Positions 39,370 through 48,391 of a stretch of DNA of 62,046 nucleotides are shown in pieces. The translations under genes were made by a program, and so were the position numbers. Below the pieces are notes generated by a model that was given only the letters and a program-made list of their open reading frames with translations, did not search any database and was not told the DNA's origin. This DNA is from Thiotrichaceae bacterium. Lineage in GTDB: Bacteria > Pseudomonadota > Gammaproteobacteria > Thiotrichales > Thiotrichaceae. The stretch is taken from the NCBI GenBank assembly GCA_015486375.1, contig WFRR01000052.1, positions 1-62,046 of the forward strand, in the 5' to 3' direction. Each line of letters starts with the position of its first letter. Positions within the stretch are counted from its first letter, which is position 1.

Positions 39370-39861
39370 TTATTCAATTTTTGTATCAAGCTGTGCATCT
39401 TGTTCTAATTGCATCATTTCTAAAATTACGGTTTCAATCGCAGGTAAATCTGGAATCATACAAGGAATATTACCCACGCGAACATGACTAGCAATATAGG
39501 GACAACGTTGTTTATTTTTTTTGTGATCATCGCGCAGTGCTTCTTCACTAACATCTAAAGTATGGGGTGAACCTTTAGTTTGAATTGCAATAAATCTGAG
39601 TTTCTCATCGTCTAGTAACGAGTGTAAAATAACGCAATGCTTTTGCATTACATGTGTATTATCCAACATACAGAGTGATTCTAAGGTAATCAGTGGAATC
39701 CGTCGTCCATGCCATTCTAGCCAGTTAACCAAATCTGTTTCATCCATTTGATCAAGGTGAATCATCGCCGCCATTAAGTTATTAGGAATAATTAAATTTC
39801 CCATGGCAAGTGGCACAACAAGACTTTTTATATTGGGATGATGAGTAGTATTTGACATCAA
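39370..39861 (-). CDS. chpC: ChpC-like CheW-domain protein
   Basis: Single CheW-like domain of about 160 residues: SLVVPLAMGNLIIPNNLMAAMI, then WLEWHGRRIPLITLE, a degenerate CheW pattern as in ChpC of the Pil-Chp system, thought to link further receptors to ChpA. It follows chpA by 9 bases and has the same strand as the whole cluster. Confidence 0.82.
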   Translation of the reverse strand: MMSNTTHHPNIKSLVVPLAMGNLIIPNNLMAAMIHLDQMDETDLVNWLEWHGRRIPLITLESLCMLDNTHVMQKHCVILHSLLDDEKLRFIAIQTKGSPHTLDVSEEALRDDHKKNKQRCPYIASHVRVGNIPCMIPDLPAIETVILEMMQLEQDAQLDTKIE

Positions 39862-39870
39862 TATTTTTTC

Positions 39871-42800
39871 CTAAGTATGGGTCGGTTTGGTTAATAAAAG
39901 TTGAATCGCATCCAGTAATTCAGCTTCTTGATAAGGTTTTCCCATAAATTTATTCACACCCACTTTCTTGGCATATTTTCGATGTTTAGTCGCCGAACGT
40001 GAAGAAATCATAATAACAGGTAGATTTTTCCACCTTCGGGTTTTACGTAAATTAGATAAGAGTTCAAAACCATCCATTCGCGGCATTTCAATATCCAATA
40101 ACATCATATCAGGGCGTTGTGTATTTAAAACTTCCAAGGCATGCATACCGTCTTTAGCCGTAATCACTTCATAACCTTGCGAGCGTAATAACGCTTCAGT
40201 TATTTTACGAATTGTAATCGAGTCATCCACAATCATAATGGTCGTTTTCTCATTTTTTATAGGCGCAATTTGTTGCTGATAGGCTTGAGTGAGCTGTATT
40301 TTCTTAGGTTTGCGATGTACTAACTCTAGCGTATTAAGAATCGGGATAACATAACCATCAGATTCAATCGTTGCAGCGGTATATAAGCTAGAGGCATGTA
40401 AAATACGCCCTAAGGGTTTAATCACTACATCGCGATTACCTGAAATTTTATCGAGTCGATAGGCAATACGTTGTTTATCCATATGGATGAATAAGACTGG
40501 AAATTTTTCGTCTTCCTGTCCTTCAAAAATAATGGGTTGTTGTAAGACCTGAGCAAGGTGTTGTAGTTTGTAATGACACTTATTGTAAAGTTGCTTAGGG
40601 TTCTTCTTGGCAAAGCTTTGCTTTAATTCTTGATAACTAACCCGTTGTAAACCGACCACACCCGTCATTGGAATGGCATAGCGTTGTTTAGCCACTTCAA
40701 ACAATAAAACATGGTTAGTCGCCAAAGTCAGTGGTAAGCGAATGATAAATTCAGTACCATTATTACCTGAAAGTAATTGTAAATTACCACCCATATTTTT
40801 AATTTCACGTTTGGCAATATCCATACCGACACCCCGCCCTGAAATTTGATTAACTTCAGAATTAGTCGATAGTCCTGAATGGAAAATCAAACGCTGAATG
40901 GCTTCTTCACCTAAATTATCGTGTTTACTAATTATATTCATCGCTAAGGCTTTTTTATAAACTGCCTTTGTATTGATGCCTCGCCCATCATCGGAGAGAC
41001 AGAGTACAATTTCTGCCCCATCCCGCTGAATCTCAAGCAGTACTTGTCCTGTCTCATCCTTATTCAATTTTTTACGTTTATTAGGACGTTCAATCCCGTG
41101 CGAAACGGCGTTACGAATCATATGTTCTAAAGGAGCAGTAATTTTTTGTAAAACCACCCGATCTAGTTCACATTGCTCACCTTGTATTTCTAAAGAGACT
41201 TTTTTACCTAAACTTTCAGCCGTTTGTCGTGCAATTCGTTGTAAACGAGGTGATAGAGTATCAATGGTCACTAAGCGAGTTGCTAATAAGCTTTGCTGCA
41301 TTTCTTGACTCATTTTCGACTGTTTTGTAACTACTTGTCGAATCCGAGCTTGTTCGGAAGAAAGATTCTCTTCGATACTACTGAGGTCATTTAAACCTTC
41401 TTGAATAAAGCGCGATAATTGTTGAATTTCTGAATATTGATCCAGTTCTAAAGGATCGAACTGTTCTTCGTCATCATCCTGTTTTAAGTCGGGTTCAGTC
41501 TGATGGCTATGTCGAATTTGTGCTTCAGTTTCCAGCTCTAAAGCTCGCAATTGTTGTCCTAAGCGGGTTGCCGTTGTGAGCAATTCATCAATATCATTAC
41601 CAAAGTGTTGTAAATGCTCACTTAAGCGGGTTTGGTTAATATTAATTTCAGTCGAAATACATACCATATTATCAATCACACTGGCAGGTAAACGAATCAT
41701 TTCATTGTTATTGCTAGTCGTTGATTCAGAATGATTATTTAGCTTAGTCGTTTTAGTCTGATTTTGGCTAAAATTAATATCATGCAAACTATCTTTCTGA
41801 CTAACGATTAATTGTTCAAGCAAGCTGTTGTAGCTATTACTGGTGTTTTCAATTTCATTATCAGAATCATCGACTAAGCTAATTTTTTCAGAAGGTTGCT
41901 CAGGCGACTGTTTAGTTTGTTGCTGATTCGATTTTTCTTCAATATTGCCTGTATCGGAGTCCCTTTGTAAATTTAGCTTCTCATCCAATAATTTTTTAAT
42001 TTTTACTTCGCTTTCAAAGACTGTCGTCGATAAGTCGGTATTATCATCTAAGTCTTCAGTCAGTATTGTAGCGAGTTCAGTATTCTCATCTAAATTGTTA
42101 TCCAATTTTTCTTCTGCTTTAGCAGCTTCTATGCTGGGTATTGATGTAGATAAATCGGTATTACCTTCTAATACTGCTTCAGCAAGATCATGTAGTGTAT
42201 CAATGGCAGTTTGTACCTGTTTCTGAGCGGTCTTATCCATTAACTCAATCCCAGTCACAATACTATTTAATAGGGATTCCGCTTCATGAGCCACATCCGC
42301 CATTGCTTGTGCATTAATCATTCTTGCACCGCCTTTTAACGTATGTAATAGACGTTCTAATTCAACCCAATTTTTATGTTCTTCAGGATGACTGTGAGTT
42401 GATAACATCGTGGTATCAATATCTTCAAGTAATTCAGGTAAATCACTTTTAAATAAAGATAAAATCATCAGGGTGGTTTTTTCATCTTCTCTATTATGAT
42501 CATGTCTATTTTGGTTAAAAGATGAATTTTTATCATTTGAATATTGTGCTTGAGAACTTTGTTTTTGCCTAACTTTTTTGATTTCTACAGCGTTATCTTG
42601 GATATTTTTCGTTGAGTTTTTAGGCTGCAAATACTCTTCAGCCTGTTGTAGCTGTTGGCGTAAATGCTCATCAAGGGCATTCTTTTCTAAGAAATCATTT
42701 TGTTGTTTTTGTAATGACTGCGCTGAAGTATCAATCAGTTGAGTTAAATCTTTAGTGATTAATACTTGTCCTTTCAAGACATGATTTAAAAGATTTTCGT

Positions 42801-43152
42801 AAGCCCATGCATAATCGCCTAAAGCCATTGCGCCCATCATGCGCCCACTACCTTTTAGGGTGTGATAAGCCCGCCGAATTTCTTCTAATACCTGTTGATT
42901 TTGTAAATCAGCTTGCCAAACAACACTCTGAGAACGAATTTTAGCAGCGGCTTCGCGGTATTCTTCCGTAAAAATAGCCAGTGTTTCAGGATCATTAATT
43001 AGAAAGGTTGCAGTTTCTTCCTGTTCAGTCAGAGTGCTTTTTGCAGGGTCTTGAGCCGTTTTACCCTGTTTTTGCTCTAAAGGAGTGCAATTTTCTTGAG
43101 AATCGCGGGTGGCATCTTCTGAAATTGCTTTTTTTTTTGCTTTAGCTGTCGA
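39871..43152 (-). CDS. chpA: ChpA hybrid histidine kinase, C-terminal part (downstream frame)
   Basis: The open frame runs from a stop at 43153-43155 to 39871, but the first ATG/GTG/TTG is ATG 42840, inside the histidine-phosphotransfer motif HTLKGSGRMMG, so it cannot be an independent start. Domains: Hpt (HTLKGSGR near 42850), a second Hpt (LLHTLKGGARMINAQAMA), a long Asn/Asp-rich spacer, dimerisation/HATPase (DDGRGINTKAVYK, GRGVGMDIAKREIKNMGG), CheW-like region and a C-terminal receiver (IMIVDDSITIRK, LLDIEMPRMDGFELL). It continues the N-terminal part of chpA in the -1 frame relative to it, joined at the A10 tract. Confidence 0.85.
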   Translation of the reverse strand, partial: STAKAKKKAISEDATRDSQENCTPLEQKQGKTAQDPAKSTLTEQEETATFLINDPETLAIFTEEYREAAAKIRSQSVVWQADLQNQQVLEEIRRAYHTLKGSGRMMGAMALGDYAWAYENLLNHVLKGQVLITKDLTQLIDTSAQSLQKQQNDFLEKNALDEHLRQQLQQAEEYLQPKNSTKNIQDNAVEIKKVRQKQSSQAQYSNDKNSSFNQNRHDHNREDEKTTLMILSLFKSDLPELLEDIDTTMLSTHSHPEEHKNWVELERLLHTLKGGARMINAQAMADVAHEAESLLNSIVTGIELMDKTAQKQVQTAIDTLHDLAEAVLEGNTDLSTSIPSIEAAKAEEKLDNNLDENTELATILTEDLDDNTDLSTTVFESEVKIKKLLDEKLNLQRDSDTGNIEEKSNQQQTKQSPEQPSEKISLVDDSDNEIENTSNSYNSLLEQLIVSQKDSLHDINFSQNQTKTTKLNNHSESTTSNNNEMIRLPASVIDNMVCISTEININQTRLSEHLQHFGNDIDELLTTATRLGQQLRALELETEAQIRHSHQTEPDLKQDDDEEQFDPLELDQYSEIQQLSRFIQEGLNDLSSIEENLSSEQARIRQVVTKQSKMSQEMQQSLLATRLVTIDTLSPRLQRIARQTAESLGKKVSLEIQGEQCELDRVVLQKITAPLEHMIRNAVSHGIERPNKRKKLNKDETGQVLLEIQRDGAEIVLCLSDDGRGINTKAVYKKALAMNIISKHDNLGEEAIQRLIFHSGLSTNSEVNQISGRGVGMDIAKREIKNMGGNLQLLSGNNGTEFIIRLPLTLATNHVLLFEVAKQRYAIPMTGVVGLQRVSYQELKQSFAKKNPKQLYNKCHYKLQHLAQVLQQPIIFEGQEDEKFPVLFIHMDKQRIAYRLDKISGNRDVVIKPLGRILHASSLYTAATIESDGYVIPILNTLELVHRKPKKIQLTQAYQQQIAPIKNEKTTIMIVDDSITIRKITEALLRSQGYEVITAKDGMHALEVLNTQRPDMMLLDIEMPRMDGFELLSNLRKTRRWKNLPVIMISSRSATKHRKYAKKVGVNKFMGKPYQEAELLDAIQLLLTKPTHT

Positions 43153-44909
43153 TTAATATCGGCACGTTGTAGTTCATCAACTAAATGCGGAATCACCGAA
43201 TGTTCGGTTAAGTGATCAATAGCAATATAAGCATCTTGCAATAAATCAGTGTAATCCTCATTTTCTTGGAACATTTTAATACTGGTTTCTAAAATCGCTA
43301 AGGCATCCGCAAGATAAGGCTGCTCAGTTTCAGAAGGACAACGACGCTCACGTTTTAAATCTTCTTGTATATAAATTTTAATGGCATCGACTAAAGGGAT
43401 AAATTCAGTGTGACTTAATAAAACTAAAGCCCCTTTGACATAGGATAAATACTGAGAAGCTTGATTTAATGCGTTTAAATCGGATTTATTATCAATAAAC
43501 TCACTTAAATTTTGTTGCGTAGATTGAATATCTTCAATAATGGCATCTTGAGTTTGTCGTACTACCACCCGATCAAGATTATAACTATCAGAGAAAATAG
43601 CATCAGTAATATCATCACCCGTTCGTGCGTATTCTGCCAATACTTGTTGCAGTTGTAATAACCGTTGCGTGACATCAAGAAAATCATCCCGTTCGAGTTG
43701 ATAAGCATCTTCATTGCTATCATCACTGGCATAAATTAATTGTTTATCCAAATCATCAATAATATTAGCAGCCTGATTCAGTCCAATCACGCGTAAACTA
43801 CCAATCAGCTTTTGCAAGCTTTCCGATAAATCGGCAATTTGTTCACCAAATGCCGCTTTATTTTGGGTATCAATGGTTTCAATGTGAGTAACTAAATGTC
43901 CAATTTGTTCATTAAGGGAATCTGCCACGGATTTCCACAAAGCCCGCCCAGGAGCATGGTAGTATTCTCGTAGTTCATATAAGGTTTCACCTTGTGGGAG
44001 ATGCATATCAAGCAGATAAGCTTCCTTAACTGCATCAAGCGTCTCTGCACCTTTTTCAGCTAAGCCAACATAATAGAGTAGATTTTTAATTAAGGTATCA
44101 AGGATAGAAGCATTGTGTCCCACTTCCTGCTTTTCACCGAATATGCGAATTTCACGTTCCATTTGCCCCATTAATAATTTAACGGTGATACTGCTCTCTA
44201 ACTTTTCATGTTCTAAAGCTTCTGCAAGCGCAATAATGATCCACCATAAGGCACGTAAGCGGCTGCTCTTATTAAGACGAATGAGATTTTTGGCCACACG
44301 CTGCAAAATTTGTAAGCTATGTTGTTTTTCTTCTTCCTTAAACCAACCTAATAAAGATTTCTGAAAGTGGTAACGGAGACGAACACAGGCTTTTTGTAGA
44401 TTTTCAGTATCTAGTGATACATAGTCATAAATACCAATATCCTCATTACTAATCGTTTCACTATCAGGTAAAAAGACTAAATGTTCAGATAATAATTGCG
44501 TTTCTCGGGCTGCGCGAAGGTCATTCAATAAAGGTAAAATAATGACGGGTAAATCTGCATAACCTTCTTCAAGGTGATTGAGATATTCAGGTAAACGAAT
44601 AAAAGCATTAACGAGTGCTTGCTTTGCTTCTTCAGTTTTATCGATTTTATCTTGGTTTAATTCACTCGCAAGGATGAGCATTTCTTTAGCTAACATCGCT
44701 GCACCGTGTGCGCCGACTAAATCGAGTGATCCATGAATATTTTCTAATAATTGAGTACAGTCTAAAAGACCTTCTTCACCCGTTTCATTGGCTTCATTTT
44801 CCCACTTTAAGTAGCCATCTAAGTGCTGCTTAGCTTGCTCAATTAGTGGGTCGACATCATTGATAACCCAACCTAAACGGGTTATTAGACTGGCTTTATT
44901 TGAAATCAT
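43077..44909 (-). CDS. chpA: ChpA, N-terminal part (upstream frame)
   Basis: 610-residue product with the N-terminal FimL-like and Hpt-like helical bundle of ChpA (NIHGSLDLVGAHGAAMLAKEMLI, IGSLRVIGLNQAANIIDD). No kinase domain: the frame closes at TAG 43077-43079, about 50 bases after the A10 tract at 43129-43138. Total ChpA including both frames would be about 1680 residues, shorter than the more than 2000 of Pseudomonas. It may be translated alone or extended into the next frame by slippage. It follows pilJ by 17 bases. Confidence 0.8.
   Translation of the reverse strand: MISNKASLITRLGWVINDVDPLIEQAKQHLDGYLKWENEANETGEEGLLDCTQLLENIHGSLDLVGAHGAAMLAKEMLILASELNQDKIDKTEEAKQALVNAFIRLPEYLNHLEEGYADLPVIILPLLNDLRAARETQLLSEHLVFLPDSETISNEDIGIYDYVSLDTENLQKACVRLRYHFQKSLLGWFKEEEKQHSLQILQRVAKNLIRLNKSSRLRALWWIIIALAEALEHEKLESSITVKLLMGQMEREIRIFGEKQEVGHNASILDTLIKNLLYYVGLAEKGAETLDAVKEAYLLDMHLPQGETLYELREYYHAPGRALWKSVADSLNEQIGHLVTHIETIDTQNKAAFGEQIADLSESLQKLIGSLRVIGLNQAANIIDDLDKQLIYASDDSNEDAYQLERDDFLDVTQRLLQLQQVLAEYARTGDDITDAIFSDSYNLDRVVVRQTQDAIIEDIQSTQQNLSEFIDNKSDLNALNQASQYLSYVKGALVLLSHTEFIPLVDAIKIYIQEDLKRERRCPSETEQPYLADALAILETSIKMFQENEDYTDLLQDAYIAIDHLTEHSVIPHLVDELQRADINRQLKQKKKQFQKMPPAILKKIALL
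43087..43140 (-). other. A10 tract with A-AAA-AAG heptamer and stem: candidate recoding site in chpA
   Basis: On the minus strand ten A (43138-43129) are followed by G. In the upstream frame the last two codons are AAA AAG preceded by A (43134-43128), the same slippery heptamer and phase as in dnaX. A -1 shift enters the downstream ChpA frame exactly. Immediately after the heptamer GCAATTT (43128-43122) can pair with AAATTGC (43093-43087), a 7-bp stem with no spacer. No dnaX-like Shine-Dalgarno is evident upstream. Confidence 0.5.
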
Positions 44910-44926
44910 ATTGCACCTAATATTTA

Positions 44927-46942
44927 TTATTCTGGTTGACTTTCTTCTTGTGGCAGTACGAAGCCGTAAATCGACTCTCTAAGTTCTGCGGTCGTTTTTG
45001 TTAAGTCACCGATATACTGTGTTGTTTCTACGACTTGATCCGATGTTTGTTGGGTAATATATTGAATAACATTGATCGTCTCTGAGATTTGTTCTGCTGA
45101 ATCAAATTGATCAATCGAAACGCTGGAAATATTTTCGATTAAATCGGCTAATTGTGCAGAAACATTCTCTATTTCATTTAAGGAATTTTTGGCCACTTCG
45201 GCATTATGAGTTCCTTCAACCACATGGGCGGTGGTCACTTCCATCGAAGCTACGGCTTCTTCTGTATCCGCTAAAATCGCACGGACTAATACTTCTATTT
45301 TTCGGGTTGCTTCTGAAGCATCTTGTGATAATTGCTGTACTTCATCCGATAAAGCAGAAAAGTTTTGACTATTATTTTGTGATTCAGCAGCTGAAGCCTG
45401 AATCGCTGCATTTAAGGCTAAAATATTGGTTTGTTCTGCAATATCACTCATTAAATGGACAATATTACCAATCTCTTGAGAACTTTCACTCAAACGCTTA
45501 ATGCGTTTCGAGGTACTCTGAATCTGCTCTCGGATGGTACTCATACCAGCAATCGTATTGCGTACCGTACTCGCACCTGTATGAGAAATAGCTAGTGATT
45601 TCTCTGCTACTTGTGCCGAACTAGCCGCATTCTTCGAAACATTTTTAATTGAATCGATCAGTACCGCAATGGACTGAGAAGAATCTGTTATTTTTTGATT
45701 TTGTTGCTGGCTCAATGATGACAAAAGCTGAATGGTATTATCCGCTTTACTGGCATTGTGTGTCAATTCTCGCGACGTATTGTTAATTTTTGTGACTAAC
45801 ACTCGTAATGCTTCTACAGCATAGTTGACTGAATCCGCAATTGCACCTGTAATATTTTCACTTACAGTGGCTTTAATGGTCAAATCACCTTCTGCCAGTG
45901 TACTCATTTCTTCTAATAATTTCTCAATCGCTTGTTGTTGTTGATCGTTTAAGCGATGTGAAGAACGTAAGCGTTGACGGGCTTGTTTAAATAAAGAGTA
46001 GGCTAGCCACATCGCCATCAGTAGCGCAAGTACACCAAACACAATGGCTGTAATATTATAAAAACTATTATGATCTTCACGTAGTTTAAAGCGTTCTTGC
46101 ACATCTCTGACCGCTTGTAATAACATTTTTGAATGAGTTTCAATCGAAAAAGTTGCTTTAGAAAGTTTTTGTAAAGTAGGGGCTAGCTCTGAAACCATTG
46201 CAATGGTCTTATTCACATTTTTAAACAAATTACGGGTTTCTTTTACCAACTGTAACTGTTCTGTATTTAATAATTTACTTTCATTTTTAAGTAACTTCGC
46301 CAATACTTGACTAAATTCTGCGGCATCTTGTACAAATTGGTCACTGGCAGCACTAATATTTTGATGGGTATTGAGAACACGATTGATATTATTATCAATA
46401 CGTTGGATTAACATCACTTGTCGGCTTGTTAAAATAATTTGTTTATTATTAGCATTATTATCAAGCATATATTGAGTAATCATTTCTGATTTACTGTGTA
46501 AACTTGGAATCAAACGGCTCATCTTTTTTGCATAAGCTTGATTACTAGAGATGATTTTCTTTCCCGCTAAGATAGTATCAATTTCTTGCTGATAAACTCC
46601 CCATTTTTGCACTAACTGTTCAATCTCTACTTGATAGCGTAAAGAAATCTCAGCATCAATTTTTTGTAGCATCGTTAGGTTTTTGTCGAATTTATCTCGT
46701 AATGCTTGGATCGTACTAACATCATGCTTTCCTTTAAGTAATAAGGATTGTGAGGTACTCGCGGATATTTGTTGCGATAGTAAACTTTGTTCCGATAATA
46801 TCGTTAGATAGTTTTGAGTTTTTTTATTTTCAATCGAGGCATATTCAAATGCAACCACCATACAAGCGATAAATACAATCAGCAAGATAATGGGAAACCA
46901 AGGTAATTTACTTTGTGAATGATTATGATAGACAGTGGACAT
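44927..46942 (-). CDS. pilJ: Twitching-motility methyl-accepting chemotaxis protein PilJ
   Basis: Membrane receptor of the Pil-Chp system. ATG 46942 (MSTVYHNHS) is preferred to GTG 46960. A first membrane helix (PWFPIILLIVFIACMVVAF), a periplasmic helical domain with two PilJ-type repeats, a second membrane segment (ITAIVFGVLALLMAMWLAYSLF), HAMP-like region and a C-terminal signalling domain with the hairpin DIAEQTNILALNAAIQASAAESQ. Senses pilus-related input and passes it to ChpA. No gene for the methyltransferase PilK is found between pilJ and chpA. Confidence 0.92.
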   Translation of the reverse strand: MSTVYHNHSQSKLPWFPIILLIVFIACMVVAFEYASIENKKTQNYLTILSEQSLLSQQISASTSQSLLLKGKHDVSTIQALRDKFDKNLTMLQKIDAEISLRYQVEIEQLVQKWGVYQQEIDTILAGKKIISSNQAYAKKMSRLIPSLHSKSEMITQYMLDNNANNKQIILTSRQVMLIQRIDNNINRVLNTHQNISAASDQFVQDAAEFSQVLAKLLKNESKLLNTEQLQLVKETRNLFKNVNKTIAMVSELAPTLQKLSKATFSIETHSKMLLQAVRDVQERFKLREDHNSFYNITAIVFGVLALLMAMWLAYSLFKQARQRLRSSHRLNDQQQQAIEKLLEEMSTLAEGDLTIKATVSENITGAIADSVNYAVEALRVLVTKINNTSRELTHNASKADNTIQLLSSLSQQQNQKITDSSQSIAVLIDSIKNVSKNAASSAQVAEKSLAISHTGASTVRNTIAGMSTIREQIQSTSKRIKRLSESSQEIGNIVHLMSDIAEQTNILALNAAIQASAAESQNNSQNFSALSDEVQQLSQDASEATRKIEVLVRAILADTEEAVASMEVTTAHVVEGTHNAEVAKNSLNEIENVSAQLADLIENISSVSIDQFDSAEQISETINVIQYITQQTSDQVVETTQYIGDLTKTTAELRESIYGFVLPQEESQPE

Positions 46943-46984
46943 TATTGTTTTTTTCTTCACCGTGTGCAGTAGAGTAAAACTGTC

Positions 46985-47512
46985 TTAGGCACTCATTAAC
47001 TCTATACTCCGCCTGATCGCCTGCATATTTAAAACAAAAATAGAATGATCATTTTGCATACGGTATAGATGACAATAACGTGCTAACACATCGTTGGGTT
47101 CTGACTGTGGCTGTGTTACTTTTTTAAGCCAGTAATGACGAATGCTTTCCACTTTATCAATATAAAGCCCTAATAAATTTTCAGGCGTTTGAATAACTAA
47201 AATGCGAACATCCGTTGTGGTCGTATTATCTGGCTGATTGATACCTAATAAAATAGCCAAGTCCACTAACGGTAGTAAATTACCTCTAAAGCTAGTTAAA
47301 CCCTTAAACCAAGGCTTCGTTCCTAAGATGGGGGTAATATGCAAAACAGGAATAATTTCTTCAATTTCACTCTGGCGAATTAAAATGGCGTGATCACGAA
47401 TATTAATGCGTAAAAAGCTACTGTCTTCTGAATTTTCATTTTCTTGGGATTGTAAGCGTTTTTTATCGCGTAACAGTGACATACCGTATAACAGTTTATA
47501 AGGGGTCATCAT
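46985..47512 (-). CDS. pilI: CheW-like coupling protein PilI
   Basis: CheW-like protein of 175 residues: LRINIRDHAILIRQSEIEEIIPV, then WFKGLTSFRGNLLPLVDLAILLG and LLGLYIDKVESIRHYW. Couples PilJ to ChpA. It overlaps the end of pilH by 17 bases and precedes pilJ. Confidence 0.88.
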   Translation of the reverse strand: MMTPYKLLYGMSLLRDKKRLQSQENENSEDSSFLRINIRDHAILIRQSEIEEIIPVLHITPILGTKPWFKGLTSFRGNLLPLVDLAILLGINQPDNTTTTDVRILVIQTPENLLGLYIDKVESIRHYWLKKVTQPQSEPNDVLARYCHLYRMQNDHSIFVLNMQAIRRSIELMSA

Positions 47513-47885
47513 GAGAGATTTCTTTGTGTAGATAACGTTGGATGGTGCTAAGTAAAGTTTTTTCCGAGACAGGCTTAATTAGATAAGCACTTGCACCTTG
47601 TTGTAATGCCCACATACGATCGGTGACTTGATTTTTAGCAGAATACATAATAACGGGAATATCGACCGTCTCTTGACGACGACCTAACTCTCGTGTGGCT
47701 TGAAAACCATTTAAACCAGGCATCACCACGTCCATGATAATTAAATCAGGTTGTTGTACCTTTGCGACTTCAATACCTTCTCGCCCATTACACGCCTCAC
47801 TTACCATATAACCACTGGCTTCAAAAAACTGTCTTAAGACGTGACTTTCTGTTGGCGAGTCGTCCACAATCAAAATATGCGCCAT
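47496..47885 (-). CDS. pilH: Response regulator PilH
   Basis: Single receiver domain, CheY-like, of 129 residues: ILIVDDSPTESHVLRQFFE, phosphoacceptor Asp in LIIMDVVMPGLNGFQA, Lys in YLIKPVSEKTL. Modulates pilus retraction in the Pil-Chp system. It lies between pilG and pilI, as in Pseudomonas. Confidence 0.9.
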   Translation of the reverse strand: MAHILIVDDSPTESHVLRQFFEASGYMVSEACNGREGIEVAKVQQPDLIIMDVVMPGLNGFQATRELGRRQETVDIPVIMYSAKNQVTDRMWALQQGASAYLIKPVSEKTLLSTIQRYLHKEISHDDPL

Positions 47886-47905: not shown

Positions 47906-48391
47906 TTAGAGTGTCAGTTCTAGGTCTAACTCAGATAATTCATTGTTTATACCCCTGTTTAAATCCGCCTCTTGGCGATGAGAAACATGTTGTTGAATCG
48001 CTGAAATTAGATCACTCCGCGTAAATGGCTTAGTAATATAACTTTCCGAGCCTGATAAACGTCCATGCGCCATATCAAAGATGCTGTCTTTACTGGATAA
48101 CATTACCACAGGAATATCACGATATTCAGGGTTACCCTTAATTAATGCACAGGTTTGATAACCATCCAAGCGTGGCATCATAATATCTACAAAGATAATA
48201 TCAGGACGATAATTAGCAATCATTGCTAACGATTCAAACCCATCATTGGCGGTCAGTACTTTACAACCGTGTTCAGACAGTAAAATTTCAGCAGTACGTC
48301 GTACTGTCTTACTGTCATCAATAACCATAATAGTCAGGTTTTTAGGAATCGTATCTGTTCTATTCAGTCTTTCTAAGTCAGAAGTATTCAT
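47906..48391 (-). CDS. pilG: Response regulator PilG
   Basis: Receiver domain with phosphoacceptor Asp in IIFVDIMMPRLDGYQTC and the conserved lysine in SYITKPFTRSDL, preceded by about 20 residues and followed by about 25 residues of acidic tail. It promotes pilus extension and acts with ChpA. It is the first gene of the pilGHIJ-chpA-chpC run. Confidence 0.9.
   Translation of the reverse strand: MNTSDLERLNRTDTIPKNLTIMVIDDSKTVRRTAEILLSEHGCKVLTANDGFESLAMIANYRPDIIFVDIMMPRLDGYQTCALIKGNPEYRDIPVVMLSSKDSIFDMAHGRLSGSESYITKPFTRSDLISAIQQHVSHRQEADLNRGINNELSELDLELTL

Follow-up and report, generated by a model that had tools for sequence, protein, structure and literature searches.

The dnaX gene, with its gamma and tau products, is the closest described counterpart of the chpA gene analysed here. 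It is read by a -1 frameshift in Escherichia coli and by transcriptional slippage on an A9 tract in Thermus thermophilus—and, as in chpA, an A_AAA_AAG heptamer or a run of nine or ten A is positioned between the N- and C-terminal domains, and the two products have a common N-terminus. A second case is copA of E. coli, whose slip site differs from that of chpA, whose long form is the standard product, and for which the function of the frameshift was tested. Its short product CopA(Z) (cited in PMC10187127) consists of the N-terminal module of a larger protein, as the short form of chpA would, and takes the place of copZ, a separate gene in other bacteria, much as the chpA short form might replace fimL.

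On the protein side, FimL of Pseudomonas aeruginosa is homologous to residues 1–563 of ChpA (PMC3019171), and PilG is recruited to the pole by both FimL and ChpA; FimL of Pseudomonas has FimV and PilG as polar binding partners (PMC10519157). FimL and ChpA of Pseudomonas and Acinetobacter are homologous to the short form described below and have the pil-chp operon context in common with it. Unlike in Thiotrichaceae, however, FimL is a separate gene in these genera, and ChpA is encoded by one unbroken ORF.

The window—the whole analysed stretch of 62,046 nucleotides from a Thiotrichaceae bacterium (GCA_015486375.1, contig WFRR01000052.1)—carries a chpA that is very probably a programmed recoding gene, giving a FimL-like short form and the full-length kinase by a -1 change at an A tract. 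This reading draws together the tract, the two frames, the family-wide conservation, the lack of a fused allele, a selected tail, and the lack of a separate fimL; recoding of chpA as such is well supported by these sequence comparisons. It would be programmed recoding in a gene class for which we found none reported: the main texts of freely accessible papers, which the search covered, gave no report of chpA or cheA recoding, and two main recoding surveys, the GeneTack survey and the Atkins review, make no mention of chemotaxis, CheA, or ChpA in the text searched. If true, chpA would be the first kinase of the CheA family in that literature for which programmed recoding is conserved.

Two frames of chpA in the window

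The surroundings of chpA correspond to a pil-chp operon with two response regulators, CheW, a chemoreceptor, chpA, and a CheW-like gene:

39370..39861, minus strand: CheW-like gene (chpC-like), directly after chpA; weak CheW match, below the curated cut-off
39871..43138, minus strand: -1 frame of chpA with two Hpt domains, HATPase_c, a CheW-like domain, and a receiver (domain matches); reached only via a frame change
43077..43128, minus strand: two-frame overlap, encoding the 15-aa tail and the stop of the short form; frame-0 constraint seen on the homologous stretch of relatives
43077..44909, minus strand: frame 0 of chpA, the putative short form of 610 aa, a FimL-like/ChpA N-terminal module (homologues, structure model)
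43129..43138, minus strand: A10 slippery tract with A_AAA_AAG in phase (sequence); the genome has two more A10 runs
44927..46960, minus strand: chemoreceptor gene (pilJ-like), upstream of chpA; MCPsignal match
46985..47512, minus strand: CheW gene (pilI-like); domain match
47496..47885, minus strand: response regulator (pilG/pilH-like); domain match
47906..48391, minus strand: response regulator (pilG/pilH-like); domain match

Frame 0 passes the tract as CAA AAA AAA AAG CAA, with the heptamer in phase, and stops 15 aa further on, while the -1 frame stays open down to 39871. The original prediction, that two ChpA halves are joined by a -1 shift at ten consecutive A, is thus borne out by the window sequence. 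A domain search recovered two Hpt, HATPase_c, CheW, and Response_reg from the -1 frame, so the C-terminal half (C-half) is intact. From the tract, this frame runs for 101 codons without ATG, GTG, or TTG, and the first such codon is the ATG at 42840, within an Hpt motif; the further claim, that making the kinase half takes a frame change, is right for this chpA.

As standard expression, frame 0 would be read through the A10 tract to the stop 15 codons on, yielding a helical ChpA N-terminal module of 610 aa, the putative FimL equivalent. In a fraction of events, a -1 change at the tract would lead to full-length ChpA of about 1680 aa—the change arising from RNA polymerase slippage on A10, from the ribosome slipping on the A-rich heptamer, or from both. 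Judged by homology, the short form would then take over the FimL task of bringing PilG to its polar docking site. Production of both forms, and their ratio, is our inference from the sequence. With the short product as its standard one, chpA would be unlike most dnaX genes and resemble the minority of reversed dnaX cases.

Conservation of the split and the slippage signals

A contig scan gave one locus, from a Thiothrix nivea MAG. The comparison family was taken as Thiotrichaceae from the named locus L023, and 63 genomes of this family were searched with the N-terminal half (N-half) of ChpA. The gene is present in 32 of them and absent from about half of the family, where pil-chp seems to be lost or very divergent; in genera g5, g7, and g8, neither single-sequence nor profile searches found a ChpA N-module. 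Comparison with chpA of close relatives, which had been proposed as a check, shows the split at the same place in all 32 genomes with the gene: frame 0 stops at ~600 aa in every one, and no species with a fused chpA frame occurs among them. In 31 of the 32, the C-half begins in the -1 frame across the junction, and its overlap with the upstream ORF is conserved. The frameshifted genes form a single clade in the tree (support 100/100) and span a deep divergence of ~30% identity. In other families, chpA is one unbroken ORF of ~1700–2500 aa where the contig allows, and extending the search to the order turned up no further family with a frameshifted chpA. Further short N-terminal frames found in the class (G079, G130, G194, G209, and G327) are contig ends.

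The tract at the junction is A10 in 18 of the 32 genomes, A9 in seven, A6G in four, and A7 in one, and is masked in one (L036) and lost in one (L035)—L023 and L038, which look like one genome, being counted once. A conserved slippery sequence (A9/A10, A6G, or A7) is hence present in 30 of 32. Genus g2 has A10 throughout, and A9 is fixed in most of g6. The window and L003, L011, L012, L042, and L043 bear A_AAA_AAG in phase, and the remaining A9/A10 members read A_AAA_AAA. Five single-contig assemblies show a clean tract (G066, G067, G069, G070, and G076); a sixth, G071, has N letters within it.

Two loci deviate in their layout. In L035 (G061:C25, 3240–3420), the slippery tract is lost (AAG AAA AAA), the -1 frame is no longer open, and the C-half follows in frame 0 after a stop with its own ATGATG start; this layout is either a natural gene fission or the result of errors in the draft. 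Even with the -1 frame closed, the tail APSTLYQKLRNQSLL can be recognised there, although one draft genome is weak evidence on its own. In L003 (G002:C436), a second frame change lies further down chpA, beside masked bases and a long repeat of QEVD units, and is probably an assembly problem.

The signals that might drive the frame change differ between genera. A 7-bp downstream stem had been predicted for the window, yet the RNA folds no better there than its shuffles (z = +0.35; −0.1 to −0.9 for three lengths), and no Shine-Dalgarno-like site lies upstream of the tract. The A9/A10 genera as a whole are alike in this: neither structure downstream of the tract nor a consistent Shine-Dalgarno-like site before it is seen, and, unlike in dnaX, no stimulator was found. 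The A10 of the window does reach the run of at least nine A that characterises Thermus-type transcriptional slippage. Closely placed stops in the +1 frame would speak for transcriptional slippage; they are evident in dnaX and not in chpA. Only the UUU type of tRNA-Lys was found in the window's genome; in E. coli, efficient shifting on A_AAA_AAG depends on this tRNA situation, which makes AAG shift-prone (PMC5009743).

In genus g3, with A6G or A7, the tract is followed at a distance of five nt by a 9-bp hairpin; folded over 40 nt, its five sequences give z values between −2.4 and −5.1. In this hairpin, 97.8% of cells are paired against 29–51% when it is slid; there is one compensatory pair, and the shuffle control is weak with five sequences (107/500). 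A purine-rich site—GAGGAG, GGAAGG, or GAGG—ends about 10–12 nt before the tract in four of the five loci. Shine-Dalgarno-like site, heptamer, and hairpin thereby follow in the same order as in E. coli dnaX.

Since the hairpin and Shine-Dalgarno-like layout are found only in g3, dnaX-type ribosomal frameshifting is probably the route in this genus, while the A9/A10 genera, the window included, probably rely mainly on A-tract slippage of RNA polymerase and possibly of ribosomes as well. In the window itself, the sequence fits transcriptional and ribosomal slippage alike. One homologous site would offer a natural comparison of the two. A more far-reaching reading is evenly poised in our judgement: that through recoding a kinase gene would itself set how much kinase is made relative to a FimL-like polar docking protein, in place of a separate fimL, with a move within the family between A-tract slippage and a structured ribosomal cassette.

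The short form, its tail, and competing explanations

The short form would be a free, kinase-less protein and is homologous to the N-terminal ~563 aa of ChpA. Its structure is predicted to be all-helical with a mean pLDDT of 88, the tract falling at residues 591–595 in the last long helix. Searches of the ChpA N-half against Pfam and NCBIfam gave no meaningful match, and a fold search against the PDB gave no significant whole-length match but local CheA P1/Hpt bundles at weak E-values only. The short form of the window matches the free FimL-like protein L022 with an E-value of about 1e-8 and is closer to ChpA N-termini; its identity to two free FimL-like rows of the alignment is 17–24%. In the tree, it does not group with the FimL pair, and the family clade sits among fused ChpA N-termini. 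Because this clade lies apart from the FimL pair, the short form is best described as FimL-like rather than FimL, and that it acts like FimL is suggested by homology. Neither two single-sequence searches nor a profile search found a second FimL-like gene in the 63 genomes of the family; a marginal N-module piece in G011 (E = 7e-4) lies within the C-half of the same chpA locus.

A free N-module also occurs in family f33 (L073, L074, and L075; G222, G315, and G094), where chpA consists of two adjacent genes, one of 559–563 aa and one of about 1230 aa, each with a start of its own. The break lies near the same domain boundary as in the window and likewise frees the N-module—here, however, there are two genes with a gap, an own start of the C-half, and no slippery tract. 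We read this as clean gene fission. The free N-module would then arise by three routes, namely a separate fimL, gene fission in f33, and frameshifting in Thiotrichaceae. It seems useful as such, which is a possible reason for the resemblance of FimL to the ChpA N-terminus.

Whether the short form is more than a by-product can be read from its tail, which, unlike in dnaX, is conserved and comprises 13–27 extra codons. Between tract and stop, mean amino acid identity in g2 is 59% for frame 0 versus 39% for the -1 frame, and 48% versus 30% in g6 (with g4); in g3, it is 52% versus 51%. If the -1 frame alone mattered, position 2 of the frame-0 codons should change most. Parsimony on the N-half tree gives 51/47/90 changes at positions 1/2/3 of the overlap instead (p about 1e-4), similar to the 72/43/99 of an upstream control. 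By this pattern, the frame-0 tail is under purifying selection, which makes the short form a selected product. Hence, with the C-half domains intact in -1, the coding of both products appears to be under selection, in support of the earlier proposal that ChpA exists in two forms, one without kinase.

The same tail speaks against an old indel that is tolerated because non-specific slippage rescues the frame break, as happens in endosymbionts with poly-A tracts, and with a functionless short form. Slippage on A9/A10 can indeed rescue broken frames (discussed in PMC5009743). The genomes concerned are free-living, however, and the split is conserved at ~30% identity; the Shine-Dalgarno-like site plus hairpin in g3 and the independent fission in f33 fit poorly as well, making this explanation very unlikely.

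Still less likely are two separate proteins, the C-half being translated from its own internal start without frameshifting. The clean two-gene arrangement of f33 shows that this can be reached, the ATGATG before the C-half of G061 perhaps marks another such case, and a C-half start may be usable in some relatives. In the window, by contrast, no ATG, GTG, or TTG precedes the Hpt phosphorylation motif, and the same is true of six of the 31 loci; 26 of the 31 are without a Shine-Dalgarno-equipped start before the motif, no start position is conserved, and the conserved tract would be left unexplained.

Phase variation, by which replication slippage alters the tract length and switches between the short form (off) and full ChpA (on), ranks lower again. 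A10 tracts do mutate, and the frame depends on tract length, but this explanation is disfavoured because it predicts a fused length in some species and 0 of 32 have one. Moreover, tract length is fixed at A10 in g2 and at A9 in most of g6, the A6G of g3 comes with a hairpin, and the frame-0 tail is under selection. A sequencing or assembly error is the least probable explanation by our estimate: homopolymers are error-prone and the window's genome is a 175-contig draft, but the split is shared by all 32 relatives with the gene, including the five single-contig assemblies with a clean tract, and is kept in g3 at a site of merely A6G or A7. Among the four options of the original prediction, base error is thus rejected and phase variation disfavoured, and ribosomal -1 shifting and transcriptional slippage remain as routes of programmed recoding. 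Such frameshifted genes are easily misfiled as errors or pseudogenes.

Long A runs and dnaX

Genome-wide pattern searches for A runs over 2.67 Mb indicate that the tract goes beyond chance. A dinucleotide model derived from the window leads to an expectation of ~76 A/T runs of at least 10, against three observed, and no A run of at least 8 occurs in the N-half ORF of chpA outside the tract in 55.7 kb from 32 loci. The three A10 runs lie in chpA, in dnaX, and in a non-coding stretch. By these counts, the lineage keeps long A runs rare, yet has one at the classic recoding point of dnaX and one in chpA.

The A10 in dnaX of the window's own genome (L123, G000:C45:20136-20145) is located at codon 395, and both other frames stop within 14 nt. 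A tract of A9–A11 near codons 365–425, at the gamma/tau boundary, is present in 27 of 30 dnaX loci of the family (L123, L135–L163), and at most of these the other two frames stop early; such stops are described for the dnaX tract of T. thermophilus, too (PMC5009743). In L154, L160, and L161, gamma corresponds to the 0 frame and tau lies in -1, while L158 has A11 and its tau seems to be in +1. The non-coding A10 (L132, G000:C10:1693-1702) is positioned ~120 nt ahead of a 383-codon open frame.
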